Shown: in pieces, positions 1 through 62,689 of the stretch | Position numbering within the stretch: position 1 is the stretch's first letter | Layout of the letters: each line of letters starts with the position of its first letter | NCBI GenBank assembly: GCA_028821235.1 | Contig: JAPPGV010000072.1 | Span: 1 to 64,000 of the forward strand | Direction of reading: 5' to 3' | Source of the DNA: a bacterium | GTDB lineage: Bacteria > Actinomycetota > Acidimicrobiia > Spongiisociales > Spongiisociaceae | Length of the DNA stretch: 64,000 nucleotides | Notes under the pieces: model-generated | Seen by the model: only the letters and a program-made list of their open reading frames with translations | What the model was told of the DNA's origin: nothing | The model's database searches: none | Made by a program: the position numbers and the translations under genes

Positions 1-265
1 TTCACTGCGTACAATCCCAAACCCTGAGCCGGGCAGAGCGGCGGACAGAACACTCAAGGCGGCGAAGTCGAAGCTCCTATAAGGTCACCCCGCTCCCCGG
101 TTCAGGACTCCCGGCTAGGGCCAGGTCGACAGATCGCGACAAAGGCACCAAAGGCCAGTTTTCGCGTGGGTCAGACCCAGCCCCAAACCGAGAGAACCCT
201 ACAAGTATGAGTGTTTTTCGCGTTCTCGCCGTCTCGGGTTCGGCTAGACCTCTACCGGATCCGGG
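1..265. other. no gene seen
   Basis: I see no convincing reading frame, tRNA or strong hairpin here. The stretch lies downstream of the minus-strand gene that ends at 266, so it may hold its 3' untranslated region and the end of a neighbour outside the window. Confidence 0.4.
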
Positions 266-1087: not shown

Positions 1088-1162
1088 CGGCCCATGCTAC
1101 CGGAGATCACGAGTTTGCAGAACGACCTCGGAGGGTCTGGCGGCCGTTCCGGAACCCTCCGC

Positions 1163-2716: not shown

Positions 2717-2721
2717 GGTTG

Positions 2722-4206: not shown

Positions 4207-4218
4207 GGGGGGTGGAGC

Positions 4219-5109: not shown

Positions 5110-5135
5110 GACTGCTCCGGCCGGAGTGCGTCGTG

Positions 5136-5798: not shown

Positions 5799-5868
5799 TG
5801 TTTCCTCCCCGTAAGACGGACTGAGCAGACTATACGTTCCTTCAGTTCGCAGGCGCGGACGCGTTCGG

Positions 5869-7227
5869 TCAGCCCAGGCGGTGTTTGAGTACCCGGAGTT
5901 GCTCCCGCACCGAGGCGAAGCCGGCCCCTCCGGTCGAGCGGCGCCTGCCTACCGACCCGGCCGGGTCGGTAAGGGAGAGGTCGGCGGGCTCGAACCGGGA
6001 GTCGGCCTCCACCAGTTCGGTGATGGTCGCCTCGGAGAGGGCCTTGCCTCCGGCCGCCAGCGCTGCCAGCAAGGCGCCCACCACCCGGTGGGCTTCGCGG
6101 AACGGGACACCCCGTTCGACCAGGGCCTCGGCCAGGTCGAGAGCGGTCACCGCCGGGTCGGGCGGGGGCGGGTGGAACTCGGCGCTACCGATCAGGGCCG
6201 TCATCGCCTCCAGGGCGCCGGCCAGGGCGTCGTCGATGGAGAACAGGGCCGCCTTGTCCTCCTGGAGGTCACGGTTGTAGGTCATGGGCAGGCCCTTCTG
6301 GAGGGCCATCAGGCCCGTTAGCTGACCGACGGCCGTGGCCGCCCGGCCGCGGGTCAGCTCGGCTATGTCGGGGTTCTTCTTGTGGGGCATCGCCGACGAG
6401 CCGGTCGTCAGCGCGTCGCCGAACGTCGCCCAACCGAACTCGGTGGTGGTCCAGAGCACGCACTCCGTCGCCAGCCTGGACAGGTGAACCAGCGCCTGGG
6501 TGCAGGCGAAGGCGTATTCGGATACGTGGTCCCGGGCCGCCACCGCGTCCATGGAGTTCATGAACCGCCCGGCCATCCCCAGCAGCTCGGCCGAACGGTC
6601 CGGGTCGAGCGGAAGGCTGCTCCCGCCGAGCGCGCCGGCCCCCAGGGGAGAGACGTCCATTCGACGGCTCACATCCTCGAACCGTTCGATGTCCCTCAGC
6701 GCGGTCGAGACGTAGGCCAGCAGGTGGTGGGCCAGCGGGACGGCTTGGGCCTGCTGGAGGTGGGTGTAGCCCGCCACCACCGTGTCCCCGACCTGCTCCG
6801 CGGCCTCCACCATCGCCAGGCAGAACTCACGGAGACCACCGATCCTGGCGCCGGCGGAGCGGAGCAGGTAGAGGCGGAGGTCCAATGCCACCTGGTCGTT
6901 CCGGGACCGCCCGGTGTGGAGCTTTCCGGCCACCTCGCCCACCAGCTCGCCCAGCCGCCGCTCCACCGCCGAATGGACGTCCTCGTCGCTCTCCAGGAAC
7001 CGGAAGGCGTTCCCGTCCGCCTCGGCCATGATGGCTTGCAGGCCTTTGGTGAGCGTGCCGGCCTCCTCGCCGTTCAGCAGCCCCGTCTCGGCGAGCATGG
7101 CCACATGGGCTAGGGAACCGGCGATGTCCTCCCGCAGCAGGCGCCGGTCGGAGTGGTCCACGGTGAAGTCCCAGAGGATCCGGTCGGGACCCTCGGAGAA
7201 GCGTCCCCCCCACATCTGGGTGGTCAC
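5869..7227 (-). CDS. argH: argininosuccinate lyase
   Basis: Last enzyme of arginine synthesis; cleaves argininosuccinate to arginine and fumarate. The 452-residue length fits, and the fumarase/aspartase superfamily signature [15 protein letters not shown] is present around residue 275, with [15 protein letters not shown] (catalytic histidine region) near 150 and [16 protein letters not shown] near 105. The start ATG overlaps the argG stop by 4 bp (7224-7227), so the two are translationally coupled in argR-argG-argH. Regulation is expected to follow the ARG boxes upstream of argR. Confidence 0.97.
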
Positions 7228-8429
7228 GGGATCACTCCGGGGCCGCGGCCGGCCTGCAGGCGAAGGCGGAGGGCGTTGAGCCGGATGAAGCCGGTGGCGT
7301 CGGACTGATCGTACGTCCCGCCCTCCTCGAAGGTGACCGTTTCCTGGTCATACAGGGTGTGGGAGTCGGAGCGCCGGCCCGTCACGGTGGCATTGCCCTT
7401 GTACATCCGGAGACGGGCCTCACCGGTGACGTTGGCCTGGATCTCGTCCATGAACCGCTGGAGAGCCTCCCGCTCGGGGGCGAACCAGAAGCCGTTGTAG
7501 ACCATCTCGGCGTAACGCGGCATCAGCTGGTCCCGGAGGTGAGCCAACTCCCTGTCGAGGGTGATGGACTCCACGGCCCGGTGGGCGTGATGGAGCAGGG
7601 TGCCACCCGGGGTCTCGTACACCCCGCGGTTCTTCATGCCCACGTAACGGTTCTCGACCAGGTCGACCCGACCGATCCCATGAGCACCGGCTATGCGGTT
7701 GCAGTGGCCCAGCATCTCGGCCGGCGACATCCGGACTCCGTCCACCGCCACCGGGGTGCCTCCCTCGAAGGCGATGACCACCTCCTCGGCCTGGTCGGGC
7801 GCCGCCTCAGGGTCGCGGGTCATCTGGAAGATACCGGCCGGAGGCGCCACCCAGGGATCCTCCAGCACGCCGCCCTCGTAGGAGATGTGGAGCAGGTTGG
7901 CATCCGTGGAATAGGGCTTCTCGGGCGTGACCGGGATCGGGATGTCGTGCTTGTCGGCATACGCCACGAGGTCGGCGCGGCCCCGCATCGACCACTCCCT
8001 CCAGGGGGCCACCACCCGGATGTCGGGGTTCAACGCGTAGGCGGACAGCTCGAAGCGCACCTGGTCGTTGCCCTTCCCGGTAGCGCCGTGGGAGATGGCC
8101 TGTGCCCCGTACTCCTCGGCGGCCCGCACCAGCCCCTTGGCGATCACCGGGCGGGCCAGAGAGGTGCCCAGCAGGTAGTAGTTCTCGTAGACGGCGTTGG
8201 CCCGGATGGCCGGCCATACGTACTCCTCCACGAACTCCTCGCGCAGATCCTCGGCCACGGCCTCGACCGCGCCGGTCGCGTACGCCTTGGCGACCGCTTC
8301 CTCGACCTCCTCGCCCTGGCCGACGTCCGCCGTGTAGCAGACGACCTCGTAGCCACGCTCCTCGATCAGCCACTTCAGGATGACCGATGTGTCCAGCCCT
8401 CCCGAGTACGCCAGTACCACCCGGCTCAT
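7224..8429 (-). CDS. argG: argininosuccinate synthase
   Basis: Condenses citrulline and aspartate with ATP. The 401-residue protein starts with the PP-loop ATP-binding motif AYSGGLDTS (residues 7-15) and carries the conserved [12 protein letters not shown] and [17 protein letters not shown] segments. Its start overlaps the argR stop by 4 bp and its stop overlaps the argH start by 4 bp, which makes a tight three-gene operon. The step before it (ornithine carbamoyltransferase, argF) is not in the window. Confidence 0.97.
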
Positions 8430-8887
8430 TCGCTCACTCCCAGCTCTTCTATCAATTGCGCTACCGCCGGTCCGCCGGTCTCTTCCCCGGCCACGACCAG
8501 CATCGTGTCGTCTCCGGCCACGGTACCCAGGATCCCTCCGAGGTCGGCGTCGTCGATGGCGGCCGCCACCACGTGGGCCGCTCCCGGTGGGGTCTTGATC
8601 ACCACCAGGTTCCCGCTCGACCTGACCGATGTCACGTAGGTGGACAGGGTCATCGCCAGGGCATCCCGGGTATCACCGGGGTCGGAACCGGGTTCCCAGA
8701 GGTATCGGAACGAACCATCCGCCGTCCTTGTCTTGACCGCTCCGACCGCCCAGAGGTCCCTCGAGACCGTGGCCTGGGTGACCTGGAACCCTTGCTCCGC
8801 CAGCAGCCCGGCCAGGTCGGCCTGGCTCGATACGGCCTGTTCGGAAAGGATGTTCCGGACGGCCCTCCGGCGCGCTTCCGTACCCAT
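8426..8887 (-). CDS. argR: arginine repressor
   Basis: ArgR-family regulator, a hexameric repressor that senses arginine through its C-terminal domain. The N-terminal winged helix (residues about 1-70: [20 protein letters not shown] ... [21 protein letters not shown]) and the C-terminal oligomerization/arginine-binding domain ([13 protein letters not shown] ... [12 protein letters not shown]) are both present. A GTG at 8905 would give six more residues but lies inside the ARG box, so I prefer ATG at 8887 (153 residues). It is the first gene of argR-argG-argH and is probably autoregulated. Confidence 0.93.
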
Positions 8888-10419: not shown

Positions 10420-10808
10420 CTCTACGTTCTCCTGATCGGTCGGGGTCGAGGCGCGTCCACCACCGCATGTCGGGCTTGGAGGATCGCGCCGGCCTCAAAG
10501 CGCGGCGCGGTGATAGGTGGGCGTGCGATCGGATCCGGTACGCCGGATTATATCGAGACCTGCTCCAAGCGAGGTTCACCTGTCCGGCACTCTCGGGAAC
10601 AAAAGGCCCATTTACAGGCCCTTACGCGTCGCGGCGGGTCTAGCATCGCGGCCCTGTCGACCAGCCGACTCGTTCTGTGATTGCGAGAACGTTGCATTTC
10701 GGGCGGGTGTATGTGTCCGAGTAGGGTACGCCAGCTACACGAGGCGAAGGACTGCCTGGTCAGCCCTTTTCCGGCAGGTAGTCGACGCAAGTTTCGAGGA
10801 GGAAAAGC
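10420..10808. promoter_or_regulatory. divergent intergenic region, ahcY and sugar ABC operon
   Basis: This 389-bp gap separates divergent ahcY and the binding-protein gene at 10809. On the minus strand a perfect TATAAT (forward ATTATA near 10550) could be the ahcY -10 box, with no good -35. On the plus side, 10682-10696 (TGCGAGAACGTTGCA) is an imperfect palindrome with TGC/GCA ends around AACGTT, reminiscent of LacI-family operators that often control sugar transporters. A GAGGAGG ribosome site lies just before 10809. All these assignments are tentative. Confidence 0.35.
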
Positions 10809-12242
10809 ATGAAAGTGAAGTTCGTACGGCTCCTGGCGCTGTTGGCAGCGCTTGCACTGGTAGCAGGCGCCTGCGGCGGGGACGAGTCGGATACGCCCGC
10901 AACACCGGAGACCGTGGTCGTGACGTCGATCGTCACCGAGACCGAGACCGTGACATCGGTTGTTACGGAGACCGTGACCGAGACCGTTACCGAGGTGGTG
11001 ACCGAGACGGTAGAGGTCGAAGCGGTCAACCCACTGGCCGGAACGACGGTCACGGTGTTCGGACCGGAGAGCTCGGACGCCGAGGCCGGTTCGCATCAGG
11101 CGGCGCTCGACATCTTCGCCGCCCAGAACGACATGACCATCCAGTACACCGGGGAGCGCAGTTTCTCGGACCTGATCAACGCCCAGGCAGCCGGTGGCAA
11201 CCCGCCGGACATCGCGGTCTTCCCGCAGCCCGGCAAGATCGCCGACTTCGCCCGTGAGGGTTGGCTCCTGCCGATCCCCGACGACGTCATCGCCACCATG
11301 GAAGCCAACATCGGCGCGGCATGGAACGCATTCGGCAACGTCGACGGCGTCCAGTACGCCATCCCGACCAAGGCGGACCTCAAGTCACTGGTGTGGTACC
11401 GGCCGGCCGACTTCGCGGCCAACGGGTACGAGGTCCCCGGAACCTGGGCCGACCTGAAGGCTCTCAGCCAGCAGATGATCGATGACGGCAACGTGCCGTG
11501 GTGCGTGGGCATCGAGTCCGGCGGCGCCACCGGATGGGCCTTCACGGACTGGGTGGAGGACCTGACCCTCCGTTACGAGGGTGCTGACTTCTACGACGAG
11601 TGGGTGGCCCACACCATCCCGTTCAACACTCCGGAGATGAACGCCATCTGGACCGAGATACTCGCGCTCTGGAACACTCCGGGCGCCGTGTATGCGGAGG
11701 GTGGAACCATCGCCTCGACCTTCTTCGGGGACAACGGCCGGCCGCTGGTGGAGGGTGACTGCATGATGCATCGCCAGGCCTCCTTCTTCTCGGCCTTCTT
11801 CCCCGATGGCACGCGGTTCGGTCCCGACGGTGTCGATGTCTTCTACTTCCCGTCGGTGAGCGGTGACCGCCCGGTGCTCGGCGCCGGGACGCTGGTGTCC
11901 GCCTTCAGGGATGCGCCCGAGGTATGGGCGGTGATGGAGTACTACGCCAGCCCCGAGTACGCAGACAACCGGCAACGGTTCCAGAATCTGTCCAAGGGTG
12001 GCGGAGCGGTGCTGAGCGGCTTCCTGTCCCCCAACCTGAACGCCGACCTGGGCCTCTACCAGCCTCTGGAGCAGTCCTTCCTGGACATCCTGTTCACGGC
12101 TGAGGTGGTCCGGTTCGACGGCTCCGACCTGATGCCGGCCGCAGTGGGCGCCGGGACCTTCTGGTCCGAGGCGACCAGCGCGGTGAACGGTGACAAGACG
12201 GTCGACGAGGCCACCCAGGCGATTGAGGCCTCCTGGCCCTAA
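10809..12242 (+). CDS. sugar ABC transporter substrate-binding lipoprotein (AglE-like)
   Basis: A 477-residue extracytoplasmic binding protein. It has a signal peptide ending in the lipobox VAGAC (acylated Cys22), then an unusual threonine/glutamate/valine-rich linker (residues about 35-75, many TETVT-like units), then a cluster B/type 2 sugar-binding domain (AAGGNPPDIAVFPQPGKI, YAIPTKADLKSLVWYRP). With the two permeases that follow it resembles alpha-glucoside (AglEFG) importers. No ATPase gene is in the operon; such systems often share a MsmK/AglK-type ATPase encoded elsewhere. A strong ribosome site (GAGGAGGAAAAG) precedes the start. The glycosidases at 21.5-24.4 kb fit an imported glucoside. 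The sugar itself is an inference. Confidence 0.85.
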   Translation: MKVKFVRLLALLAALALVAGACGGDESDTPATPETVVVTSIVTETETVTSVVTETVTETVTEVVTETVEVEAVNPLAGTTVTVFGPESSDAEAGSHQAALDIFAAQNDMTIQYTGERSFSDLINAQAAGGNPPDIAVFPQPGKIADFAREGWLLPIPDDVIATMEANIGAAWNAFGNVDGVQYAIPTKADLKSLVWYRPADFAANGYEVPGTWADLKALSQQMIDDGNVPWCVGIESGGATGWAFTDWVEDLTLRYEGADFYDEWVAHTIPFNTPEMNAIWTEILALWNTPGAVYAEGGTIASTFFGDNGRPLVEGDCMMHRQASFFSAFFPDGTRFGPDGVDVFYFPSVSGDRPVLGAGTLVSAFRDAPEVWAVMEYYASPEYADNRQRFQNLSKGGGAVLSGFLSPNLNADLGLYQPLEQSFLDILFTAEVVRFDGSDLMPAAVGAGTFWSEATSAVNGDKTVDEATQAIEASWP

Positions 12243-12265
12243 GGCACTGAACAGCTAGGTGCTGT

Positions 12266-12301
12266 ACGGTGGGTGCCTATCAGGCGGTAGGCACCCACCG
12301 T
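12266..12301 (+). terminator. perfect hairpin between binding protein and permease genes
   Basis: A 14-bp perfect stem (ACGGTGGGTGCCTA paired with TAGGCACCCACCGT) with an 8-base loop, 23 bp after the binding-protein stop and 98 bp before the permease. There is no long T tract. In importer operons a hairpin here commonly attenuates or stabilises the 5' message so that the binding protein is made in excess; that role is inferred. Confidence 0.7.
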
Positions 12302-12398
12302 GTCCAACTCATTGATGAGAGGACGGCCCGGCCACAACGATGAGACACACCCGAACCCCGGCTAGCGGGTCGGCTCTCTACATGGAGGAGGCCGGCGG

Positions 12399-14498
12399 GT
12401 GGTAGGCGTCATGAGCGTGGCCGTCAACCTCCTCATGGCCCTCGGCCTGGCCGGCGGGGCCGGGCTGTGGATCGACCGCACCGGCCGGCGCTCCCGGACC
12501 AGGCGGATCATCGCCGTGGTGGTTGGCGCGGCCCTCGGCGCCCTCACCTGGTGGGGAATCACCTCGGTCGACAAACTGGAGACTACGGCCACGGGGGTGG
12601 TGGTCTCGATTCTCGCCAGCGGGCTGATCTTTATCGCCGCCAACAAGCTCTTCGACCTGGCCCCCGATCGCTGGGTTGTCTTTACCACCCTGGTGGGAGC
12701 CGCTAGCAGCTTCGCCGTCTTCGCCATGCTGTGGGGTAACCGGGTCATCGACGGTCCGGTGCTCCGCACGGTGGTGGCCACCGCGATCGGAGCGGTGGCG
12801 GGCTACCTGCTGGGCACTGTCGAGCGACCGGGGACGCGCCTAGCGATCGGCGCCGGCGCCGGCGTTGCGCTCGGTGCTCTGGCAGCATCCGGTATGCGGG
12901 CTGTCATCCTCGTCTTCGAGCGGGAGCAGGGCACACTCGAGCTGTGGCCCGTCCTGCCCGACCTGCAATACGGCCTGCTGGCGATTCTCGCCCTGGCCGG
13001 TGCCGGGGCGGGCCTGGCGGTACGGCTGGTCCGGGGCCGGAAGACGCCGGCTCTCCGCTCGGCGGTGCTGGGGGCGACCCTCGGGTACGCGGTGGGCGCC
13101 TGGTTGGTGCCCGACCTCGGCCTCGGCACCATGACGGATGCCTACGTGGCCGCCATTGGCGTCGGTTTGGGGGTCGGGGCGCTAGCCGGCCTCAAGCCCA
13201 TTCCCGACCAATCCGCCCGGGGCCGGATCGAGGTGTCCGCCCGGGCCTACATCTTCCTGGTGCCGGCGCTGGGCTTCATCGCCTCGACCCTGATCATCCC
13301 GACTCTCCGGACCCTGTTCCTCTCGTTCCACGACGCCAGGGGCCAGGAATACGTCGGCTTCGTCAACTACCGGGACGTGTTCGGGAGTCCCAACATCTTC
13401 AACGTGGATGGTTGGACCGGCATCTTCGGCAGCAAGCTGTTCTGGGTGGGCGCGGTACTGCTCCTGATCGGGGTGGGCGTTTCGGTCCTGCTGGGCCGCC
13501 AGAGCGGCTACAGGATCAGCTTCTCGCCCGGATCCGGTGGCCTAGCGGCGCTGGGCGCGCTGCTGGCGTTGTTCGCGGTGTTCGCGGCCCTGCGGGGAAC
13601 GATATTCAACAACCTGTGGTGGGTGGTCACGGTCACCGTGATCTCGACGACGGCGGGCCTTGCCATAGCCGTGCTGGCCGACCGGTCCAAGGGGGAGTCG
13701 GTCGCCAAGTCGCTCATCTTCATGCCGATGGCGATCTCGTTCGTGGGCGCCGGCGTGATCTGGCGCTTCATGTACCTGGCGCGGGACGTGTCGAAGCCGC
13801 AGACGGGAGTGATCAACACGTTCTGGGTGGGCCTGGGCAATCTCAGCCTGTCCCGTGGTCCCGGGTTCTGGATCGCAGCCCTCCTGAGCCTGGCTCTGGC
13901 GGCGCTCCTGGTGCGCCTGGCGATCCGGGCCTGGCGGGTGGGGGAGCGAGGGGTCGGGGCCGGCGCGGCGGTCTGCGCCCTGCCGCTGGTCTGGTTCGCC
14001 TACGCCTTGTGGCGCGGGGTGGGCGGCTTCGAGGTCAGGGACAACGGCGATGTGGTGGCCTCCACCATCCAATTCGCCCAGCAGGCGCCCTTCAACAACG
14101 TATGGCTGATGCTGGTGCTGATCTGGATCCAGACCGGCTTCACGATGGTGATCTTCTCGGCGGCCATCAAGGCGGTACCGTCCGATCTCATCGAGGCGGC
14201 CCGGGTGGACGGCGCCTCCGAGGCGCAGGCCTTCTGGCGGGTGATCATTCCCCAGATCGCTCCGACCATCGGGGTGGTGATCACCACCCTGATCGTGCTG
14301 GTCATGAAGGTGTTCGACATCGTGAAGGTGATGACCAACGGGAACTTCGGCACCCAGGTGATCGCCAACGAGATGTGGCAGCGCGCCTTCACCGAGCTGA
14401 ACTTCGGGCTCGGGTCGGCGCTGGCGGTGGTGCTGTTCATCGCCGTGCTGCCGATCCTCTACGTGAACATCCGCCGGATGCAGAAGGCGGCCGGCTGA
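12399..14498 (+). CDS. sugar ABC transporter permease with long N-terminal membrane extension (AglF-like)
   Basis: A 699-residue MalF-type inner-membrane permease. The C-terminal part carries the EAA loop that contacts the ATPase (EAARVDGASEAQAFWRVIIP, near residue 605) and the typical helix pattern. It is about twice the usual length: residues 1-275 form an additional block of roughly eight hydrophobic helices before the normal start near RAYIFLVPALGF, and a further insert of two to three helices sits around residues 345-400. I chose GTG at 12399 because GGAGGAG stands 8 bp upstream; ATG at 12411 is the alternative. The stop overlaps the next permease start (ATGA), so the two are translationally coupled. 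Confidence 0.85.
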   Translation: MVGVMSVAVNLLMALGLAGGAGLWIDRTGRRSRTRRIIAVVVGAALGALTWWGITSVDKLETTATGVVVSILASGLIFIAANKLFDLAPDRWVVFTTLVGAASSFAVFAMLWGNRVIDGPVLRTVVATAIGAVAGYLLGTVERPGTRLAIGAGAGVALGALAASGMRAVILVFEREQGTLELWPVLPDLQYGLLAILALAGAGAGLAVRLVRGRKTPALRSAVLGATLGYAVGAWLVPDLGLGTMTDAYVAAIGVGLGVGALAGLKPIPDQSARGRIEVSARAYIFLVPALGFIASTLIIPTLRTLFLSFHDARGQEYVGFVNYRDVFGSPNIFNVDGWTGIFGSKLFWVGAVLLLIGVGVSVLLGRQSGYRISFSPGSGGLAALGALLALFAVFAALRGTIFNNLWWVVTVTVISTTAGLAIAVLADRSKGESVAKSLIFMPMAISFVGAGVIWRFMYLARDVSKPQTGVINTFWVGLGNLSLSRGPGFWIAALLSLALAALLVRLAIRAWRVGERGVGAGAAVCALPLVWFAYALWRGVGGFEVRDNGDVVASTIQFAQQAPFNNVWLMLVLIWIQTGFTMVIFSAAIKAVPSDLIEAARVDGASEAQAFWRVIIPQIAPTIGVVITTLIVLVMKVFDIVKVMTNGNFGTQVIANEMWQRAFTELNFGLGSALAVVLFIAVLPILYVNIRRMQKAAG

Positions 14499-15448
14499 TG
14501 ACCACGCTGAGCACGACCGGAGGACCCGGCCTCGGCAAGCGCACGTACGCCTTTCTGAGGTCGATTCCCACCTGGGTGCTGTGGATGCTGGTCCTGCTGT
14601 GGACCATCCCCTCGCTGGGACTGTTGGTCAACTCGTTCCGGACCCGCAACGCCCAGCGGGCCACCGGGTGGTGGGCCGTTGTCGTCGAGAACCCGTCGGA
14701 GACCCTGACCTTCGACAACTACGTCGACATACTCGCTGCCGGCGCCCAGGGCGGCCTGTGGCGAGCCCTGCTCAATTCCCTGGCCATAGCCCTGCCGGCC
14801 ACGGTGATCCCGATCGCCTTCGCCGCCTTCGCCGCGTACGCGTTCGCCTGGATCGACTTCAAGGGACGGGAGTGGCTGTTCATCGCCACCGTTTCGCTGC
14901 TGGCCATACCGGCCCAGATGTCGCTGATACCGCTACTCCAGCTCTACAGCGGCGGAGGCCATCTGACCCTCCCGATCCTCGAAAAGACCGTGACCTTGTT
15001 CCCGGATCTCGACCTGGCGGGCAGGCATGTGTCGGTCTGGCTCACCCACACCGGCTTCGCGCTGCCGTTCGCCATCTTCCTCCTGCACAACTACATCAGC
15101 GGGTTGCCCAAGGACATCTTCGAGTCGGCGGTCATCGACGGGGCCGACCACTTCAAGATCTTCTGGCGGCTGGTCATCCCGCTGTCGGTCCCGGTGCTGG
15201 CGGCCTTCGCCATCTTCCAGTTCCTGTGGACCTACAACGACTACATGATCGCGGTCACCATGCTGGGAGGCGCGGGGCAGAACTTCCCGGCCACAGCCCG
15301 TATCGCAGCCCTGGCCGGCGAATTCGGCCAGGCCGAACACCTTCTGACCGCCGGCGCGTTCCTGTCGACACTGCTACCGATCATCGTGTTCTTCGCCCTC
15401 CAACGCTTCTTCGTCACCGGCATCCTCGCCGGCTCCGTAAAGGGCTAG
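14498..15448 (+). CDS. sugar ABC transporter permease (AglG/MalG-like)
   Basis: A 316-residue partner permease. It has about six transmembrane helices, the EAA loop ESAVIDGADHFKIFWRLVIP near residue 210, and a large periplasmic loop after helix 1 (NSFRTRNAQRATGWWAVVVENP), which is characteristic of AglG-type proteins. The start ATG overlaps the upstream stop by 1 base; a longer same-frame extension into the upstream gene is an overlap artefact. It ends the operon; the next gene is on the other strand. Confidence 0.88.
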   Translation: MTTLSTTGGPGLGKRTYAFLRSIPTWVLWMLVLLWTIPSLGLLVNSFRTRNAQRATGWWAVVVENPSETLTFDNYVDILAAGAQGGLWRALLNSLAIALPATVIPIAFAAFAAYAFAWIDFKGREWLFIATVSLLAIPAQMSLIPLLQLYSGGGHLTLPILEKTVTLFPDLDLAGRHVSVWLTHTGFALPFAIFLLHNYISGLPKDIFESAVIDGADHFKIFWRLVIPLSVPVLAAFAIFQFLWTYNDYMIAVTMLGGAGQNFPATARIAALAGEFGQAEHLLTAGAFLSTLLPIIVFFALQRFFVTGILAGSVKG

Positions 15449-15488
15449 TTGCTAGTTGTGCCCCTGTGCGTTTGTTAGCACTGGTCAA

Positions 15489-16562
15489 CTAGAACAGCAC
15501 CTCGGTCATCTCCACGGGGCGGTGCCCGTCTATCGAGCGCTGGGCGGCTACGCCCATGGCTACGGCGAGGTATCCGTCGTAGGCGCTGACCTGGGGCGGC
15601 GTGCCGTTGCGGATGGCTCTTAGGAACTCCAGGTGCTCCAGGTATGACGCTCCGTGGTGGCCGCCGGTGTGGGCGATCCGGCTGTCGGTGGCGGTCTCGA
15701 CCGTCGGAGAGAACCATTCGCCGTCCCGGAGACCGGTCAGCACCAGGCCGGACGGTATGCGGGCCTCCACCTTGCCGCGGTCGCCGACCGCCACCAGTTC
15801 CTCCTGGTTTTCGCCTCCTTCGGCGAACATGCATAGGTCGAGCATGGCCCGCTGCCCGTCCCGGTAGTCCACGATCACGTAGGCGTTGTCGAGGATGTCA
15901 GGCCGGTGCCCGCCGTAGCACTCGTCCAGATGGTTGACCGCCTGGCTACCCGAGGCAAAGACCCGTACCGGGGGGTTGCCGATGATGTGGTTCATCAGGT
16001 CGAAGTGGTGGCAGCACTTCTCCACCAGGGTTCCTCCGGAGTTGGCGTTGAACCGGTTCCAGTCGTTCACCTTGGGCAGGAACGGGAAGCGGTGCTCCCG
16101 GATGGCCAGCATCTTCAGGTCGCCGACCGTGCCCCTCCGGACCTCGGCGATCAGCCGGGCGGTGGCAGGCATGTAGCGGTACTCCATCCCGACCCAGAGA
16201 ACCTGTTCCCGCCGCCGCTGAGCTTCTACCACCCACCGGCAGTCCTCGATCCTCGTGCATAGGGGCTTCTCGACCAGCAGGTGCAGATCGGTCTCCATCA
16301 GGTCGCGGAGCAGATCGATGTGGGTCATGTTGGGGGTGGCCAGCACCACCGCATCGCACAACTCGGAGTCGATGAGGGCGCGGTGGTCCTCGAAGACCGC
16401 CAAGTCCTGGTCCGCCAGCGCCTCAAGGGCTGCCTGCCGCGAAGGAAGGTGCGGATCCGCCACCGCTGCCACCTCGGCGCCGGGCAGGGCCCGGATGTTC
16501 CCGATGTGCTCGATGCCCATCATCCCGGTACCGACGATCCCGTACCGGACGGTCACGCTCAT
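15489..16562 (-). CDS. Gfo/Idh/MocA-family oxidoreductase
   Basis: A 357-residue NAD(P)-dependent oxidoreductase. The Rossmann domain starts at residue 6 (YGIVGTGMMGIEHIGNI), followed by the family EKPLCTRIEDC motif near residue 97 (lysine of the E-K-P catalytic/cofactor motif) and a C-terminal alpha/beta domain with EKCCHHFDLMNHI. These enzymes act on sugars, inositols or other polyols. It converges with the importer operon, so it may process the imported sugar, but it is transcribed separately. Substrate unknown. Confidence 0.87.
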   Translation of the reverse strand: MSVTVRYGIVGTGMMGIEHIGNIRALPGAEVAAVADPHLPSRQAALEALADQDLAVFEDHRALIDSELCDAVVLATPNMTHIDLLRDLMETDLHLLVEKPLCTRIEDCRWVVEAQRRREQVLWVGMEYRYMPATARLIAEVRRGTVGDLKMLAIREHRFPFLPKVNDWNRFNANSGGTLVEKCCHHFDLMNHIIGNPPVRVFASGSQAVNHLDECYGGHRPDILDNAYVIVDYRDGQRAMLDLCMFAEGGENQEELVAVGDRGKVEARIPSGLVLTGLRDGEWFSPTVETATDSRIAHTGGHHGASYLEHLEFLRAIRNGTPPQVSAYDGYLAVAMGVAAQRSIDGHRPVEMTEVLF

Positions 16563-51005: not shown

Positions 51006-51079
51006 GGGCGTTTAGCTCAGCTTGGGAGAGCGCTTCCCTTACAAGGAAGAGGTCGGCGGTTCGAGCCCGTCAACGCCCA
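51006..51079 (+). tRNA. tRNA-Val (anticodon TAC)
   Basis: A 74-base cloverleaf. The acceptor stem GGGCGTT pairs with AACGCCC, the D arm is AGCTCAGCTTGGGAGAGC, the anticodon stem CTTCC/GGAAG has loop CTTACAA (anticodon TAC), and the T arm is GGCGGTTCGAGCCCGTC. Its 3' end is followed by a P4-type integrase gene, so it is the likely integration site of the element that fills the rest of the window. Confidence 0.96.
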
Positions 51080-51255
51080 CAGTGGTTTCATAGGGATTCA
51101 CAAGGTACCCTAAAACCGCCATCTGCCAGGGTATTTGGTCCCTGAACCCAGAACCTACGGTTACAGAGGCACCCGTCTCGTTTCACATAATCCTGCCGAA
51201 AATGTAACATCATAAGTAACATCCTATTTCGACCAGCTCTACGTGCGAGGTAAGA
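51056..51255 (+). other. presumed left attachment site and integrase leader
   Basis: The 3' half of tRNA-Val (GGCGGTTCGAGCCCGTCAAC onward) would be attL for the downstream tyrosine recombinase. The 176 bp between tRNA and integrase hold two direct copies of GTAACATC (near 51204 and 51216, about 12 bp apart) that could be arm sites. I did not find the matching right-end copy, so the limits are unknown. Confidence 0.45.
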
Positions 51256-52404
51256 ATGCGGCGGCCCAAGACGCTCACAGCAGCCTTCTGCAAGACCATT
51301 TCCACGCCGGGAACCTACGGCGACGGGCGCGGTGGCTTCGGTTTGACCTTCCGCGTTAAGCAAACCCGCAACGGCCGGTTGTCAAGAGTATGGGCTCAAC
51401 GGGTTGTAATCAATGGTAAACCAACGTATCTTGGCCTGGGCACCTATCCAACCGTCACACTGGCCGAGGCCCGACGAAAAGCGCTCAAGAACCGCCGCGA
51501 GATCGAAGCGGGCAGGGACCCGCGAGGCGGAGGGATCCCGACCTTCGCGAGGGCCACCGACAAGGTCATCGCACTGCACCGCGACGGCTGGAAGCCGGGT
51601 AGCCGCACAGAATCGGCATGGCGTAATGGTTTCAGTCGCCACGTATATCCGAAGCTCGGCCACAGACGAGTAGACGTGATCACGACCGCGGACGTGTTAG
51701 CCGTGCTCTCTCCCATATGGCATGCGGCACCCCGGCAAGCCGAGGCTCTACGACGACGGATTAGCCAGGTCATGCGCTGGGCGGTCGCGCAGGGCTACCG
51801 GCCGGACGACGCCGCAGGGCCGGCTCTCACCGCGGTTCTACCGAAACGCCCCAACGTGACGACTCACCACCGGGCTCTCCACCACTCCGAAGTAGCAGGC
51901 GCGCTGCGGAAGGTCCGCGAGTCAGCTGTAGCCACATCGACACGGTTGGCCATCGAGTTCCTCGCACTGACGGCAGCCCGAACCACCGAGGTCAGGCTCG
52001 CTACCAGGTCGGAGATCGACCACCAGGCCGGAGTATGGACGGTCCCGGCCGAGCGGATGAAAGCAGGTCGAGAACATCGGATACCGCTCAGCAGTGCCGC
52101 GCTCCGTGTGCTAGACGAGGCGTACCGGCATGCTGGTGGCGAGTTGCTGTTCCCTGGGAGAAGTGGCAAACCGGCCGGCCACGGGGTGCTCGCCGCGACG
52201 TTTCGCCGGCTCGATATCGGAACCGTCCACGGACTGCGGTCGAGCTTTCGGGACTGGTGCTCTGAGACCGGCGTCCCCCGCGAGGTGGCAGAACAGGCAT
52301 TGGCCCATTCAGTTGGCGGCGTCGAGGGTGCCTACGCCCGGTCCGACCTCCTCGATCTACGCAAGCCGGTAATGGAGGCATGGGGCGAGTACATCGATGC
52401 CTAA
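51256..52404 (+). CDS. int: P4-like tyrosine recombinase (integrase)
   Basis: A 382-residue site-specific recombinase. The N-terminal arm-binding (DUF4102-like) domain shows YGDGRGGFGLTFRVKQT ... YLGLGTYPTVTLAEARRKA (residues about 20-80). The catalytic domain has the first arginine in TAARTTEVRLAT, the HxxR box in HGLRSSFRDWC (near residue 325), and the second histidine and tyrosine nucleophile in QALAHSVGGVEGAYARSD (Tyr near 365). The catalytic set appears complete, so it should be active. Its place right after tRNA-Val is the usual one for P4-type integrative elements. Confidence 0.93.
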   Translation: MRRPKTLTAAFCKTISTPGTYGDGRGGFGLTFRVKQTRNGRLSRVWAQRVVINGKPTYLGLGTYPTVTLAEARRKALKNRREIEAGRDPRGGGIPTFARATDKVIALHRDGWKPGSRTESAWRNGFSRHVYPKLGHRRVDVITTADVLAVLSPIWHAAPRQAEALRRRISQVMRWAVAQGYRPDDAAGPALTAVLPKRPNVTTHHRALHHSEVAGALRKVRESAVATSTRLAIEFLALTAARTTEVRLATRSEIDHQAGVWTVPAERMKAGREHRIPLSSAALRVLDEAYRHAGGELLFPGRSGKPAGHGVLAATFRRLDIGTVHGLRSSFRDWCSETGVPREVAEQALAHSVGGVEGAYARSDLLDLRKPVMEAWGEYIDA

Positions 52405-53871: not shown

Positions 53872-54771
53872 ATGCTGCCCATGGTTACTGCAGCGGCTGT
53901 AGCGCTGCATCCTGATCTGGTTGACTTCCCGGACACCCGACCGGTGCGGGGTCCGCTGGCTGGCGTGGTCAATACCTTGCGGGAGGAGGACCGGGTGATA
54001 GTCACTCTGGGTGATCTGGCCGAGTTGCTGCCCGGCCGGGCTCCGCAGAGTACCGCTAGGGCGCTGCGGGAGGCGGGGTGGCTGTTCCCGATGCGGACCC
54101 GCGGTGTGTGGGGGTTCTCCGGGTCCCGGCTGGGCGCCCCACGGGCGCCAGGGTATTTGGAGCTCCACGCCCGGATGCGGGTGCGGCCCGACACGCCGGC
54201 GTGCATTGCCGGCAAGACCGTGGCCATGCTCCATAACTGGCTGTGGCGGCCCGTCGAGTCGGACATCGGTATGCCCCCCGGCGCCAAGGTCCCCCGCTGT
54301 CTGTCCGACTTCGCCGTTCACCGGTGGGACCCTCAGATCGGCTTGGACGAGTTCTTGGGGCTGCCGATGTGGAAGCCCGAGACGCTGCTCTGCTACATGG
54401 CTGCACGACCGTCGCGGATCAGTTGGGAAGACATCAAGCAATGGCTGTGGGCGGTGTGCGAACACCTCGAGCTCGATCTGCTGCTGGCCGAGCTGGAGGG
54501 AAAGCCTCGGGCGGTGTGGATGAAGACCGGCTACCTCGCTGATGTGGGAGAGCGTCCCGACCTCGGCGAAGCTCTCGCCGGGGCGGCGCCGACCAACGCC
54601 CGCGGTCCCTATCTACTCGGTTGGCGGGAACAGCACTGGCCGACGTCGGTGTGGGAAACCCCAGTGTGGGTACCCAAGTACGAGATCATCGACCACCTCC
54701 TCCCGAGACGATGGCACCCGAAACTCGGCTTCGAGCCGTTCGAGCCACCCAAGACCTGGGGATGGGACTAA
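53872..54771 (+). CDS. AbiEi-like type IV antitoxin/transcriptional regulator, copy 1
   Basis: A 299-residue protein with an N-terminal winged helix-turn-helix (residues about 25-85: VIVTLGDLAELLPGRAPQST, ALREAGWLFPMRTRGVWGF) and an AbiEi-type C-terminal domain (ACIAGKTVAMLHNWLW, PETLLCYMAARP, AVWMKTGYLADVGERPDL). Such proteins counter AbiEii nucleotidyltransferase toxins and repress their own operon. No AbiEii follows. A paralog about 85 per cent identical by eye lies at 58489 in the same direction. The start is ATG 53872 or 53881. Confidence 0.65.
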   Translation: MLPMVTAAAVALHPDLVDFPDTRPVRGPLAGVVNTLREEDRVIVTLGDLAELLPGRAPQSTARALREAGWLFPMRTRGVWGFSGSRLGAPRAPGYLELHARMRVRPDTPACIAGKTVAMLHNWLWRPVESDIGMPPGAKVPRCLSDFAVHRWDPQIGLDEFLGLPMWKPETLLCYMAARPSRISWEDIKQWLWAVCEHLELDLLLAELEGKPRAVWMKTGYLADVGERPDLGEALAGAAPTNARGPYLLGWREQHWPTSVWETPVWVPKYEIIDHLLPRRWHPKLGFEPFEPPKTWGWD

Positions 54772-58488: not shown

Positions 58489-59376
58489 ATGAGCACCATG
58501 ACCGCCGATCTGCTACCTGACCTGGTGAACACCCCGGACACGCGGCCGGTGAGGGGCGCGCTCGTGGGGGTGGTCAATACCTTGCGGGAGCAGGACCGGG
58601 TAATAGTCACTCTGGGGGATCTGGCCGAGCTGCTTCCCGGTCGGGCTCCGCAGAGCACCGCCAGGGCGTTGCGGGAGGCGGGGTGGTTGTTCTCTATGCG
58701 TACTCGTGGTGTGTGGGGGTTCGCGGGGGTCCGGTTGGGCGCTCCTAGGGCTCCGGGGTATTTGGAGCTCCACGCTCGGATGCGGGTGCGGCCCGACACG
58801 CCGGCGTGTATCGCGGGCAAGACGGTGGCCATGCTCCATAACTGGCTGTGGCGGCCTGTCGGGTCGGCTATCGGTATGCCTCCGGGGGTCAAGGTTCCCC
58901 GTTGTCTGTCCGACTACGGCGTTCACCGGTGGGCTCCGCAGATCGGCTTTGACGAGTTCTTGGGGCTGCCGATGTGGAAGCCTGAAACGTTGCTCTGCTA
59001 CCTCGCAGCCCGACCGTCGCGTATCTGCTGGGAGGACGTGCAGGAGTGGTTGTGGGCGGTGTGTGAGAACCTCGAGTTTGATCTGCTGCTGGCCGAGTTG
59101 GAAGGATGGCCTCGGGCGGTGTGGATGAAGACCGGCTACCTCGCCGATGTGGGAGAGCGCCCCGATCTCGGCGAGGCTCTCGCCGCGGCGGCGCCGGCAG
59201 GCGGTCGGGGCCCGTTTGTGCTCGGATGGCGGGAACGGCGGTGGCCTACGCCGGTGTGGGAGAGCCCCGTGCGGCTACCCCAGTACGAACTCGTCGACTA
59301 CCTGCTCCCTGCGTGGTGGTGCCCGAAGCTTGGTTTCGAGCCGTTCGAGCCGCCCAAGACATGGGAGTCCGACTGA
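58489..59376 (+). CDS. AbiEi-like type IV antitoxin/transcriptional regulator, copy 2
   Basis: A 295-residue paralog of the gene at 53872; most differences are at the first 25 residues and the last third. It has the same winged helix (IVTLGDLAELLPGRAPQST) and C-terminal domain (VWMKTGYLADVGERPDL). Again no AbiEii-type toxin gene follows; the next gene is a minus-strand AlpA. Nucleotide similarity is confined to the gene, so it is a gene-sized duplication or two independent acquisitions of related systems. Confidence 0.65.
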   Translation: MSTMTADLLPDLVNTPDTRPVRGALVGVVNTLREQDRVIVTLGDLAELLPGRAPQSTARALREAGWLFSMRTRGVWGFAGVRLGAPRAPGYLELHARMRVRPDTPACIAGKTVAMLHNWLWRPVGSAIGMPPGVKVPRCLSDYGVHRWAPQIGFDEFLGLPMWKPETLLCYLAARPSRICWEDVQEWLWAVCENLEFDLLLAELEGWPRAVWMKTGYLADVGERPDLGEALAAAAPAGGRGPFVLGWRERRWPTPVWESPVRLPQYELVDYLLPAWWCPKLGFEPFEPPKTWESD

Positions 59377-59650
59377 ACAACCTCCCCGCAGCGATCAAGC
59401 AGGCGTACCCAGCCGCCAAGAGCGGTTCGGTTGTCGAGGAAGCGGCGGTGCTGACGAGGCGTTCCACCACTACCGCCTCCTCTACGGACTCCACGAGAAG
59501 CGAGCGGCCTGCCTAGTTGACTCCATTCTTTTGGTCGTGTTGGCTTGATCGGTACCACCAGTCGGCGTGCCCGGCACCGATCGGAACGAAAACCCAGCCA
59601 GAAGGAAACGACTCCGGGACGTGCGAGTTGCTGTTGTTCGGGTGGGGTGG

Positions 59651-59908
59651 TCACGCTGTGGGGGATAGGTTGTCGATCCAGTCGTAGATGTCCTGTTCCC
59701 GCCAGCCCACCGCCCGGGTGTGTTCCCCACCAAGACGGATAGGTTGGGGGAACGACCCGTCCCGTTCCCGACGCCAGATCGTGGTTCTGCTCAGCCCGGT
59801 GATGTCTATGACTTCGGGCATTCTCATCATCCGCCTACCCCTAAGAGGCGGCACCGCTGACCGTCGACGAGTGCCACCCGGCCTGCTGTTGTCGGTTTGG
59901 TTCCTCAT
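59651..59908 (-). CDS. AlpA-family helix-turn-helix regulator
   Basis: An 85-residue protein of the AlpA/excisionase-like family (MPEVIDITGLSRTTIWRRER, then FPQPIRLGGEHTRAVGWREQ). In P4-type elements AlpA activates integrase or acts as excisionase. GAGAGGAGA lies 7 bp before the ATG at 59908. About 26 residues at the N-terminus are low-complexity. It lies at the edge of the iteron-like field upstream, which may hold its promoter. Confidence 0.78.
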   Translation of the reverse strand: MRNQTDNSRPGGTRRRSAVPPLRGRRMMRMPEVIDITGLSRTTIWRRERDGSFPQPIRLGGEHTRAVGWREQDIYDWIDNLSPTA

Positions 59909-60028: not shown

Positions 60029-60402
60029 GTCGCGGATCCACCCCCTCGGAGTCGCGCTCAAGCGCGACCGGTCGCGCATCCACCCCCCAGCGGTCGCGCA
60101 TCCGGTCGCGCATCCCCCTTCCGCGGTCGCGCTTCCCCCCTTTGCGGTTGCGCTTGCGTCTGACCCGAGTCTCCCACCGCGGCGCGATACGTAGACGCTT
60201 CCCGACGACGGCCGAGAGGTTCGGGTAGCCAGTTGGCGAGCCTCTCGGGTGGTTTGACGGGGCGGTGGGATGTGTGTCCGCCCGCTACGTCACCCGGGGG
60301 ACATACGTCCCAGTGAGGGAACGGTGTGCCCCTTGTGGGCGTGTGAGGGCTGGTCGCGGTCGCGCTCAACCGCGACCGGTCGCGCATGCGGTCGCGCATC
60401 CC
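60029..60402. repeat. iteron-like GGTCGCGC motif clusters
   Basis: Cluster A (60029-60155) has about seven variants of GGTCGCGC followed by ATCC or TTCC; cluster B (60352-60402) has about four more. Each cluster contains one long palindrome: GCGCGACCGGTCGCGC (60062-60077) and CGCGACCGGTCGCG (60371-60384). Irregular spacing of 12-22 bp. The density is far above what surrounds it. The role is unknown; an origin, partition site or multimeric repressor site are options. Confidence 0.7.
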
Positions 60403-60505
60403 TCTGAACTGGGCTTTCGCGGCGGCTCAACAAGCGAGAAGGCCTCTGGTGGTGCGGTGGGGGCCGCCGGCGAGTCCGGCCGGCTGCGGGGCCCGTTGTT
60501 GTGGC

Positions 60506-60602
60506 GGGACAGATGTCCGGATCGGGCTCCGCATTTCTAAATGAAAACTTGGCTCTCCTTTCAACCCTCATTGACAGCCTTCGGTTTCGCGACACGTGTC
60601 CC
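60506..60602 (-). promoter_or_regulatory. palindrome-flanked promoter module A
   Basis: A conserved core (forward ATGAAAACTTG ... CTTTCAAC ... TTGAC.GCCT, 60542-60580) is flanked by GGGACAGATGTCCG (60506-60519) and GCGACACGTGTCCC (60589-60602). On the minus strand it reads as -35 TTGAAA (60559-60564) with a weak TAGAAA. It is the inverted relative of module B at 61637-61742. It would fire leftward, toward the iteron field and AlpA gene. Confidence 0.5.
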
Positions 60603-60906
60603 TCTCGGTCGCACCATCCGAAGACCTGTGTTCTTCCCCGGGTCTTGTTCTCCTCGTCTGGCTTAGCGACTGTTCTGTTGGCGCTGGTGTTGCGGTACTG
60701 CTCGAACTAGCGCTCCTCCCGTGTGCCTCTGGTGGGTTGTCGGGTTCTCGGGCAGAGTGGGCCGCGATCCCCCCGGGGTCTGACGGCTCCATGGCCTTGC
60801 GGTTAGAGGGTGTGGACGTCTCGAGTATTGGCCCCCACCAGGGGACACAGGCCGGCGGGCGAGGGTGTTGAGGTGTGGTGGTCAGCGTGTCGGACGGGGT
60901 AACCGT

Positions 60907-61386
60907 TCAGGTTTCGGTGCCGGGCGGCGACGCGGGGAGCCAGTCTTTGTGCACGGCCTGGGCCGATACTCCCATCAGCTCTCCCAGCTCTCTGAGAGTG
61001 GCACCCTCGGTGCGATACGAAGCCACGGCTCGGCGTAGCTTCTGGTTAGCCTCCGCTAGGGCGGCCTGCGCGCGGCGCCGCTCAGCGGCGGCTTCGGCGA
61101 CAAGCCCAGCCCCGACCGCAGAAACCCGAGCCTGGTCTGCTACATGAGGCTCGACTACGCCGTCGCCCACCAAACACTGCCCACCCGCAGCCGATGCCGC
61201 GTCAGCGAACAGCGACGGCTGAGCCGCGGTCCGGTCATAGGCCAGTACAGGCCCTGTTGCCGCCGAACCCTCAACCCCGGCACTAGACAGCCTCGGCGGG
61301 GCAGGCTGTGGCCTCCGAGCCGGGGCGGGTCGCCGCCGGCGTTTCTTCTTTCTTCGTCTCGACACCTTGGTCCTTCCCCGTAGCAT
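60907..61386 (-). CDS. small basic protein with C-terminal helix-turn-helix
   Basis: A 159-residue protein with a lysine/arginine-rich N-terminus (SRRRKKKRRRR), a low-complexity middle, a short coiled-coil-like helix (AAAERRRAQAALAEANQKL) and a C-terminal helix-turn-helix (GATLRELGELMGVSAQAVHK). It lies between the inverted modules A and B, so it is a candidate for the protein that binds them. I do not recognise a named family; the start is ATG 61386 or the GTG at 61365. Confidence 0.55.
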   Translation of the reverse strand: MLRGRTKVSRRRKKKRRRRPAPARRPQPAPPRLSSAGVEGSAATGPVLAYDRTAAQPSLFADAASAAGGQCLVGDGVVEPHVADQARVSAVGAGLVAEAAAERRRAQAALAEANQKLRRAVASYRTEGATLRELGELMGVSAQAVHKDWLPASPPGTET

Positions 61387-61924
61387 CCAGAGGGAGTCTC
61401 AACCCGAGTTGATCGATGCCCGGAATGTAGCGGAACCGACCCCGACCCGTGATGGGGATTCAGCCAGACGCTGCCCACCCGGACACGCCGGTGTTCGCTA
61501 GGCCGTCAGCTACGAACACGAAATGAACCACACCCCGCGAGGGGGGGGAGATGGATCATCCGGATCAAGGCATCCAAAAGCCGAATGTCTGGACCCAGCG
61601 CTGGTGACCCACGTACCAGTGGTCCCGGATCGCAGTGGGACACATGTCCCGAACCTAGGCCGTCAACCAACGTTGAAAGATGAGTCAAGTTTTCATTAAA
61701 ATGGGGACACATGTCCCAGGGGGGTGGTGGGACGTATGTCCCCGGTCGGGGATGTGCGACCGGGTTTCGGGGGTGGTCGGGCATGATGCCCGGCTTGCGT
61801 TGCCGGCGGCACTGTCAACATGCGATGTGGCACCCCGTCGGATCCCAATCGGCTCCCGCCAGGGGTGACGGACTCTCGCCGCTTGTCCGACTACCAGATT
61901 CACTAGTCCTAGGCTGGAAAGATC
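61387..61924. other. gap with promoter module, no gene seen
   Basis: About 540 bp between divergent genes. Besides module B (61637-61742) I see no gene; small frames here are shadows of the palindrome-rich sequence. Confidence 0.4.
61637..61742 (+). promoter_or_regulatory. palindrome-flanked promoter module B
   Basis: Three GGGAC-x4-GTCCC palindromes (61637-61650, 61704-61717, 61729-61742) surround a promoter-like core: TTGAAA (61673-61678), 18-bp spacer, TAAAAT (61697-61702). The second palindrome starts 1 bp after the -10, where a bound repressor would block initiation. It is oriented toward the metallophosphoesterase gene at 61925 and shares about 45 bp of core with module A in inverse direction. 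Confidence 0.55.
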
Positions 61925-62689
61925 ATGGGAACCAGATTCGCCGTTGTGGGCGACATCCACGGCAGGTTCGAAGACCTCGCAGACGCCCTAGAGAGGGTCC
62001 GCGACAAGTGGGGCCAGCTTGATTTCATACTCGCCGTGGGGGACGTGGAACCCAACCGAGGGTACGAAGATCATCTTGGGGTGGTGGGACCGCCCCGCTA
62101 CCGCAAGGTGGGCGACTTCCCACGGGTAGCAGCCGGTGACATCAGCCTGGGCGCGCCCCTGTACTTCATCGGGGGAAACCACGACCCCTATCCCGCGTTG
62201 GACCAAGCCGGGGCAGGGGAATGGGCACCGGGAGTGTGGTGGCTGGGCCGCTACGGTGTTAGCAAAGTAGCCGACGTGAACGTCGGGTTCTTGTCGGGTA
62301 TCTACTCGCGCAAATACAGCGACACCCCAGAACTGAAACGCAACGACCCCAAGCAGCGGATCTACTGGCACCGGTCCGAAGTGGAACGACTCTCCCGTGT
62401 GGCCCGACGCCACCATGGACGTGTCGATGTGCTGTTGACGCATGACTGGCCGTCGGGAGTGGGCACCAACCGCGACGGCAAACCGGTAGGCGACCCGGCG
62501 GTGCGTCAACTAACCGAAGCGATACGACCCCGGATCCATGCCTGCGGTCACATGCACCACGACCACCGAGCCCGCATCGGCCCCACCCAGGTCCTATGCC
62601 TGGCCAAACCGCTCAACACCCCTGATCGGGTACAAGGCGTTGCCGTAGTGGAACGCGACCGCAAGGGAGACCTACGAGTCGTCACCTAG
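61925..62689 (+). CDS. Dbr1-like metallophosphoesterase
   Basis: A 254-residue calcineurin-type metallophosphoesterase. Metal motifs are complete: GDIHGRF (residues 9-15), GDVE (near 38), GGNHD (near 82), LTHDWPSG (near 170) and GHMHHDH (near 207). The stretch between GGNHD and LTHDW (WWLGRYGVSKVADVNVGFLS, then GIYSRKY) closely follows the RNA lariat debranching enzyme Dbr1, including the LSGIY and THDWP sequences. Dbr1 cleaves 2'-5' bonds. The first motif has aspartate where many Dbr1 have cysteine. It has its own promoter module upstream and a hairpin after it. Function in a bacterial element is unknown. Confidence 0.8.
   Translation: MGTRFAVVGDIHGRFEDLADALERVRDKWGQLDFILAVGDVEPNRGYEDHLGVVGPPRYRKVGDFPRVAAGDISLGAPLYFIGGNHDPYPALDQAGAGEWAPGVWWLGRYGVSKVADVNVGFLSGIYSRKYSDTPELKRNDPKQRIYWHRSEVERLSRVARRHHGRVDVLLTHDWPSGVGTNRDGKPVGDPAVRQLTEAIRPRIHACGHMHHDHRARIGPTQVLCLAKPLNTPDRVQGVAVVERDRKGDLRVVT

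Follow-up and report, generated by a model that had tools for sequence, protein, structure and literature searches.

The RNA lariat debranching enzyme Dbr1 has been described as the sole enzyme known to cut the 2′-5′ bond of lariats selectively (PMC10470207). In Dbr1, Tyr64 stacks on the branchpoint base, the C14S variant has undetectable activity in vitro, both C14A and C14S fail in vivo, and the C-terminal domain of the Entamoeba histolytica enzyme is needed in vivo (PMC4176325). Two defence systems that have been tested, DS-8 and DS-9, depend on metallophosphatase domains of another subfamily (PMC13092281). Our searches of the openly accessible journal literature turned up no description of a Dbr1 homologue from bacteria.

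The gene described here is located in a stretch of 64,000 nucleotides (hereafter, the window) from contig JAPPGV010000072.1 of a bacterium in the class Acidimicrobiia. Its reading frame has an ATG start and no internal stops, and the predicted product, termed P0001 in our comparisons, matches the calcineurin-like phosphoesterase family in Pfam (PF00149, 4.5e-15), whereas a search of NCBIfam yielded no family assignment. An earlier note, made from the sequence alone, had singled out the motifs GGNHD, WWLG...VGFLSGIY, and LTHDWPSG and had likened the protein specifically to Dbr1, not to just any phosphoesterase. All three motifs are present in this reading frame (residues 83-87, 105-127, and 171-178, respectively), with chance excluded as an explanation, and the proposed likeness to Dbr1 is upheld by both sequence searches and the ranking of predicted structures. 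The positions of the gene, its key residues, and the features of the surrounding element are collected in Table 1.

Table 1. Features of the Dbr1-like gene and the integrative element that carries it, in window coordinates.
Feature	Coordinates	Strand	Basis or remark
Tyrosine integrase of the element	51256..52404	+	176 bp from tRNA-Val (51006-51080)
Second AbiEi-type gene	53872..54771	+	DNA 84% identical to AbiEi at 58489
AbiEi-type antitoxin, cargo	58489..59376	+	92% identical to the AbiEi of a complete AbiEi-AbiEii pair at another site in the genome
AlpA-type excisionase/regulator of the element	59651..59908	-	PF05930, 8.3e-16
Six palindromes GGGACRYRYGTCCC (60298, 60506, 60589, 61637, 61704, 61729)	60298..61742	.	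Directly upstream of the Dbr1-like gene
Possible small HTH protein (sigma-70 region 4-like) within the palindrome array	60907..61386	-	Weak TIGR02937 match, 2.1e-5, below cut-off
Dbr1-like metallophosphoesterase gene	61925..62689 (stop included)	+	254 aa; PF00149, Dbr1 sequence and fold matches
Metal motif I, D10-x-H12; D10 at the position of the invariant Dbr1 Cys14	61952..61960	+	Alignment, PMC4176325
D40, equivalent of Dbr1 Asp45 (metal ligand)	62042..62044	+	Alignment
Residues 57-65, PRYRKVGDF; Tyr59 aligns with Dbr1 Tyr64	62093..62119	+	Alignment
GGNHD; N85/H86 equivalent to Dbr1 Asn90/His91 (metal ligand, general acid)	62171..62185	+	Alignment
Lariat-recognition loop region, S124-R150	62294..62374	+	Alignment
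THDWP; H173 equivalent to Dbr1 His180	62438..62452	+	Alignment
GHMH; H209/M210/H211 equivalent to Dbr1 His230/Met231/His232	62546..62557	+	Alignment

When the window protein was compared with all PDB chains using phmmer, the best match was to Entamoeba Dbr1 (2.7e-21), followed by the Dbr1-like protein CWF19L1 of the spliceosome (1e-4), and no other solved phosphoesterase scored better than 0.1. A family profile built from five relatives also ranked Dbr1 first and CWF19L1 second. Two more distant relatives behave similarly. P0002, from an IMG/VR contig and 28% identical to the window protein, finds Dbr1 in the PDB at 9e-27, and P0003, which is 39% identical and belongs to a different family within the class, does so at 8e-20. 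Of three phosphoesterases used as controls, those encoded by a Streptomyces phage and by another viral contig had no Dbr1 match in the PDB, and the third, from a haloarchaeal plasmid, matched Dbr1 at only 6e-6. Because unrelated controls do not find Dbr1, a generic phosphoesterase was rejected as a full account of the protein.

The AlphaFold model of the window protein (pLDDT 84.6, pTM 0.87, with low confidence at residues 54-59) led to the same ranking. A fold search returned all nine listed Dbr1 chains first (6.8e-19 to 1.4e-16, TM 0.81-0.83), then CWF19L1 at 6.5e-14, with other phosphoesterases following from 2.8e-8. The corresponding model of P0002 (pLDDT 60) was too poor for a fold search. 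Taken together, the sequence and fold rankings provide good support for assigning the window protein to the wider Dbr1/CWF19L1 group, as judged among solved structures. The second-best viral fold match for the window model, A0A8S5RWB7 from Siphoviridae sp. ctHip2 (1.9e-11), carries the depositors' label 'RNA lariat debranching enzyme', and thus the lariat debranching name already exists in phage annotation as a predicted function.

Residue roles established for Dbr1 (PMC4176325) were transferred to the window family by reading equivalences in three alignment modes. Catalytic-site residues His16, Asp45, Asn90, His91, His180, His230, and His232 (Dbr1 numbering) are kept in all three, and the family also retains Tyr64, Ile132, Gly210, and Met231, with His replacing Tyr64 in P0002. 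In the window protein, the recognition loop (Dbr1 residues 130-158) is conserved in length, but its residues appear to be conserved only in part. The spacing between the equivalents of Ser130 and His180 is 49 in the window protein (S124-H173) compared to 50 in Entamoeba Dbr1, 45 in P0003, and 39 in P0002, which lacks extra length in this loop. Depending on the alignment, Dbr1 Arg158 falls on R150 (in one of the three), I146, or H149, and its equivalent is absent from P0002 and P0003. In addition, the alpha-pocket residue Cys14 of Dbr1 is replaced by Asp10 in the window protein, and all of its relatives likewise have Asp here. There is also no counterpart of the C-terminal domain (Dbr1 residues 262-354), as the window protein stops approximately 25 residues past the last aligned position. 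With Cys14 and the C-terminal domain absent, and with a recognition loop that appears only partly conserved and is ambiguous in alignment, the protein is not a canonical Dbr1, and we therefore have not filed it under that name. It may nonetheless function like Dbr1, or it may use its two-metal site on another nucleic-acid or nucleotide substrate.

The suggestion in the earlier note that the gene resides on a bacterial element is borne out by the tyrosine integrase beside tRNA-Val, the AlpA excisionase, and the palindrome array. Two of the six palindromes in the window have one mismatch. The 14-bp GGGACRYRYGTCCC sequence occurs at 27 exact sites in the same genome (G000), where the sites are clustered, whereas the reversed control pattern occurs at 0 sites. 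Sister species have 4 to 19 sites, and most other genomes have none or one. The clusters in G000 lie on contigs C13, C21, C72, C82, C97, C138, and C140, often with a spacing of 23 bp, and mark a newly recognised, genus-level family of integrative elements. The palindromes may serve as operators, origins, or partition sites. Members of this family encode AlpA proteins with 76-79% identity, together with a small HTH protein, and have tyrosine integrase genes beside tRNA genes; the window integrase shares 62% identity with its counterpart in a sister element, which lies at tRNA-Ala. A repeat of the tRNA-Val end, which would mark the right end of the window element, was sought but is not present on the contig, which ends at 66374. 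Near the gene, tRNA is the only structured RNA detected with Rfam.

Elements of this family carry defence genes. In the window, the AbiEii partner of the AbiEi at 58489 has been reduced to a 32-residue remnant (59361-59453). Elsewhere, the cargo includes intact AbiEi-AbiEii pairs at loci L106 and L110 and, at L102, an apparent type III restriction-modification pair with one weak EcoP15I match. The second Dbr1-like copy in the same genome is accompanied by eight palindromes at positions 475-1835 of its contig, and a Dbr1-like fragment in genome G010 lies 0.9 kb from the sole GGGACRYRYGTCCC site of that genome. The presence of both G000 copies beside palindrome clusters, together with the G010 case, indicates that the window gene is cargo of this defence-carrying element family. 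As a separate observation, the cargo of another element in G000 (L101, C140) has an Hsp90-like gene adjoining a calcineurin-type phosphoesterase gene at 2868-6645, an arrangement that looks like a two-gene system.

Strong relatives of the window protein are rare. Within the order, 6 of 138 genomes carry at least one, as do 7 of 395 genomes sampled from the class, and a sample of the phylum yielded one positive among 396 genomes with a narrow profile at an E-value of 1e-10. A search of IMG/VR recovered one good distant relative (P0002), and the phage and plasmid collections searched had no close match. Named records of relatives correspond to the uncultured metagenome bins RHO1 and RHO3, names that presumably hint at a sponge source. 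The two copies in G000 are 61% identical. Genome G459 holds two intact copies, and broken or fragmentary copies are present in G010 (C82 and C16), G473, G481, and G459 (C68). The intact copies are under purifying selection, with pairwise dN/dS values of 0.09-0.25. A conserved operon partner was sought across the loci and none was found; similarity between loci is confined to the gene and does not extend into its flanks, except where the same element recurs. Such a rare, patchy, and often broken distribution with unconserved flanks fits a cargo gene that is loose and mobile.

Several copies lie among anti-phage defence genes. P0002 is encoded directly downstream of BrxL and PglZ in a BREX locus, the G473 copy (L006) adjoins HmaA-HmaB-HmaC, and around the copy at L003 are genes for a DnaJ-domain protein, a NACHT NTPase, and OLD/GajA-type AAA ATPases. 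The second G000 copy (L002) is followed by AbiEi and AbiEii, the G010 C82 copy (L025) has an AbiEi-AbiEii pair about 6 kb away (within 7 kb), and the neighbourhood of the G481 copy includes DndB and a type II restriction enzyme. P0003 is located on a phage-like contig, and the copies at L004 and L024 have no clear defence gene among their neighbours. A PADLOC scan at 1e-20 of 85 neighbour proteins recovered AbiE, BrxL, PglX, PglZ, DndB, HmaA, RmrA, and restriction enzymes, whereas 92 control proteins, taken elsewhere in these genomes or in sister genomes, matched mostly kinases and ABC-type ATPases, with one helicase. The gene thus appears to sit in defence islands more often than expected, although this comparison is an indication rather than a formal test because genes were called with a simple ORF picker and the sample is small and not exhaustively matched. 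Any role in defence would be assigned on the basis of guilt by association.

Several of these loci have additional features that we record here. The BREX contig (L017; IMGVR_UViG_3300001567_000262, approximately 1-8800), although filed as viral, encodes PglX-like, Fic, PglZ, and BrxL proteins ahead of the Dbr1-like gene. At L003, the DnaJ-domain protein and the large NACHT NTPase (5605-7731 and 10619-14146) lie astride the Dbr1-like gene and are PADLOC negative. The phage-like contig of P0003 (L056, G693 C45) encodes, at 13206-15836, a CDC48/FtsH-like double AAA ATPase with a partial match to the anti-phage protein IteA, located approximately 4 kb from the Dbr1-like gene.

We consider it fairly probable that the window gene encodes a prokaryotic phosphodiesterase of the Dbr1/CWF19L1 clade that acts as a stand-alone protein and is carried as cargo by defence islands and by a defence-carrying integrative element. 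In the chemistry that we envisage for this enzyme, two metal ions would be coordinated by D10, H12, D40, N85, H173, H209, and H211. A water molecule bound to metal would attack the phosphorus, and H86 would protonate the leaving sugar oxygen, while Tyr59 and the loop at residues 124-150 would clamp a substrate base beside the site. The likeliest class of substrate would be a nucleic acid with an exposed 2′-linked or otherwise unusual phosphodiester, such as branched RNA, RNA-DNA branches, or 2′-5′ linked oligonucleotides or cyclic nucleotides. Such a substrate would presumably arise upon invasion by a phage or retroelement, and its cleavage would benefit the host or the element residing there, consistent with a putative defensive role. 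That the protein cleaves 2′-5′ bonds in particular is plausible but tentative, being a guess from ancestry, and a classical debranching enzyme is less likely because the Cys residue and the C-terminal domain are missing.

Four alternatives deserve consideration. One, proposed in the earlier note and in our view unlikely, is that the protein is a true branched-nucleic-acid hydrolase, a functional analogue of Dbr1 with group II intron lariats or retron msDNA as its substrates. An enzyme of this kind would limit retroelements or would disarm or tune retrons. Dbr1 is its closest relative by both sequence and fold, substrate-site residues such as the equivalents of Tyr64 and His91 are retained, and a Dbr1 preparation cleaves retron msDNA in vitro (PMC8989520). 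These points must be weighed against the Asp in place of Cys14, the missing C-terminal domain, and the unreliable conservation of Arg158. The check for such elements suggested in the earlier note showed that this genome holds a single group II intron, in which the reverse transcriptase (RT) frame is split. Group II introns occur in three of the six gene-carrying genomes compared to 11 of 138 overall (nominal p 0.007), and the values for any RT are four of six and 20 of 138 (nominal p 0.004). However, the gene-carrying genomes are larger than average. When only genomes of at least 2.8 Mb are considered, the p values become 0.06 for introns and 0.04 for RTs, and size-matched draws give 0.10 and 0.06. 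Furthermore, G005 and G473 carry the gene with neither a group II intron nor an RT, and no RT adjoins any copy of the gene. A direct link to introns or retrons is therefore unconvincing once genome size is allowed for (p 0.04-0.10), and the association is suggestive at most. G459, with its two intact copies, has a retron-type RT with a C-terminal extension (L074, C14), and an Rfam scan beside this gene detected no known RNA.

It is also improbable, in our estimate, that the protein is a phosphodiesterase whose substrate is a signalling oligonucleotide, cyclic or linear, for example one with 2′-5′ or mixed linkages, and acts as a defence effector or off-switch in the manner of DS-8 or DS-9. The Asp of motif I is canonical, as in ordinary two-metal phosphoesterases, and fits this proposal, as do the defence-island setting and the proven involvement of metallophosphatase domains in defence (PMC13092281). 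On the other hand, neither a nucleotide cyclase gene nor a CBASS gene was found next to any of the copies, and the nearest folds are RNA enzymes rather than SMPDL3A-type phosphodiesterases.

The third alternative is a general phosphoesterase that shares an ancestor with Dbr1, such that the likeness reflects ancestry rather than substrate and the presence in defence islands reflects hitchhiking. The weak match of the haloarchaeal phosphoesterase to Dbr1 (6e-6) and that of the archaeal-type PADLOC candidate PDC-S10 to P0001 (8e-10) suggest that Dbr1 may belong to a wider prokaryotic group, and two copies of the gene lack a defence neighbour. We nevertheless assign this alternative a low probability, as substrate-site residues other than metal ligands are kept across 25-40% identity and the gene has been placed repeatedly and independently beside different defence systems and on defence-carrying elements. 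Finally, a recent transfer of a eukaryotic Dbr1 from a sponge or protist into a symbiont would accord with the eukaryotic origin of the best solved relative and with the RHO1 and RHO3 bins from which relatives are named, but is highly improbable given that the window protein is only 26% identical to Entamoeba Dbr1 in the alignment, below the 31-33% of P0002 and P0003, that all prokaryotic members have the motif I Asp, and that BREX-linked and phage-like lineages exist.

Returning to the phosphodiesterase of the Dbr1/CWF19L1 clade, the new aspects here are the defence-island and integrative-element contexts, with the homology itself upheld. If a bacterial branch of this clade does reside in defence islands, this would bear on the origin of Dbr1. 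It could also add a chemistry to bacterial immunity, since group II introns and retrons both produce 2′-5′ branches. A broader and rather speculative proposal, which we think will probably not hold, is that a separate branch of the debranching family belongs to bacteria and their mobile elements, where it serves as a stand-alone defence enzyme against branched or 2′-5′ nucleic acid from retroelements or phage infection, and that the eukaryotic Dbr1 was recruited from a defence gene of this prokaryotic branch.

Among known systems, the phage metallophosphoesterases of PHROG 1649 include the phage matches of P0002, and their family profile matches P0001 at 3e-16. However, two members are only 21-23% identical to P0001, and the member tested lacks the GDF and HDWP motifs and has no Dbr1 match in the PDB, for which reason this group was rejected as a source of close homologues. 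In the Streptomyces phages Evy and Belfort (L027 and L028), the PHROG 1649 gene adjoins rIIA/rIIB in both phage groups. PDC-S10 is also a metallophosphoesterase, but its weak match to P0001 is uninformative and was set aside as a family assignment because the profile also matches common archaeal control phosphoesterases. The DS-8 system combines an SMPDL3A-like domain with a NACHT domain and DS-9 has a HAD partner (PMC13092281), whereas the window protein is a solo member of the Dbr1 clade. Its single 254-residue domain, best fold matches to Dbr1, and lack of a fixed partner gene argue against membership in either system.

CWF19L1 (PDB 8ro1 and 8ro2) is a spliceosomal protein that represents the second-best match in both sequence and fold, although the similarity is lower than that of Dbr1. 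It is much longer, and identity with CWF19L1/Drn1 was rejected because the window protein is a single domain, whereas CWF19L1/Drn1 joins a Dbr1-like N-terminal domain to a long C-terminal part that binds the spliceosome. The closest comparison is with the Dbr1 of E. histolytica (PDB 4pef, 4peh, and 5k77). The window protein differs from this enzyme by the Asp in place of Cys14, the missing C-terminal domain, the partial retention of loop residues, and its occurrence as bacterial mobile cargo. The two share the fold, all metal ligands but one, the general acid His, and the equivalents of Tyr64, Ile132, and Met231; the sequence match spans residues 5-228, and the spacing of the recognition loop region is nearly equal (49 and 50 residues).
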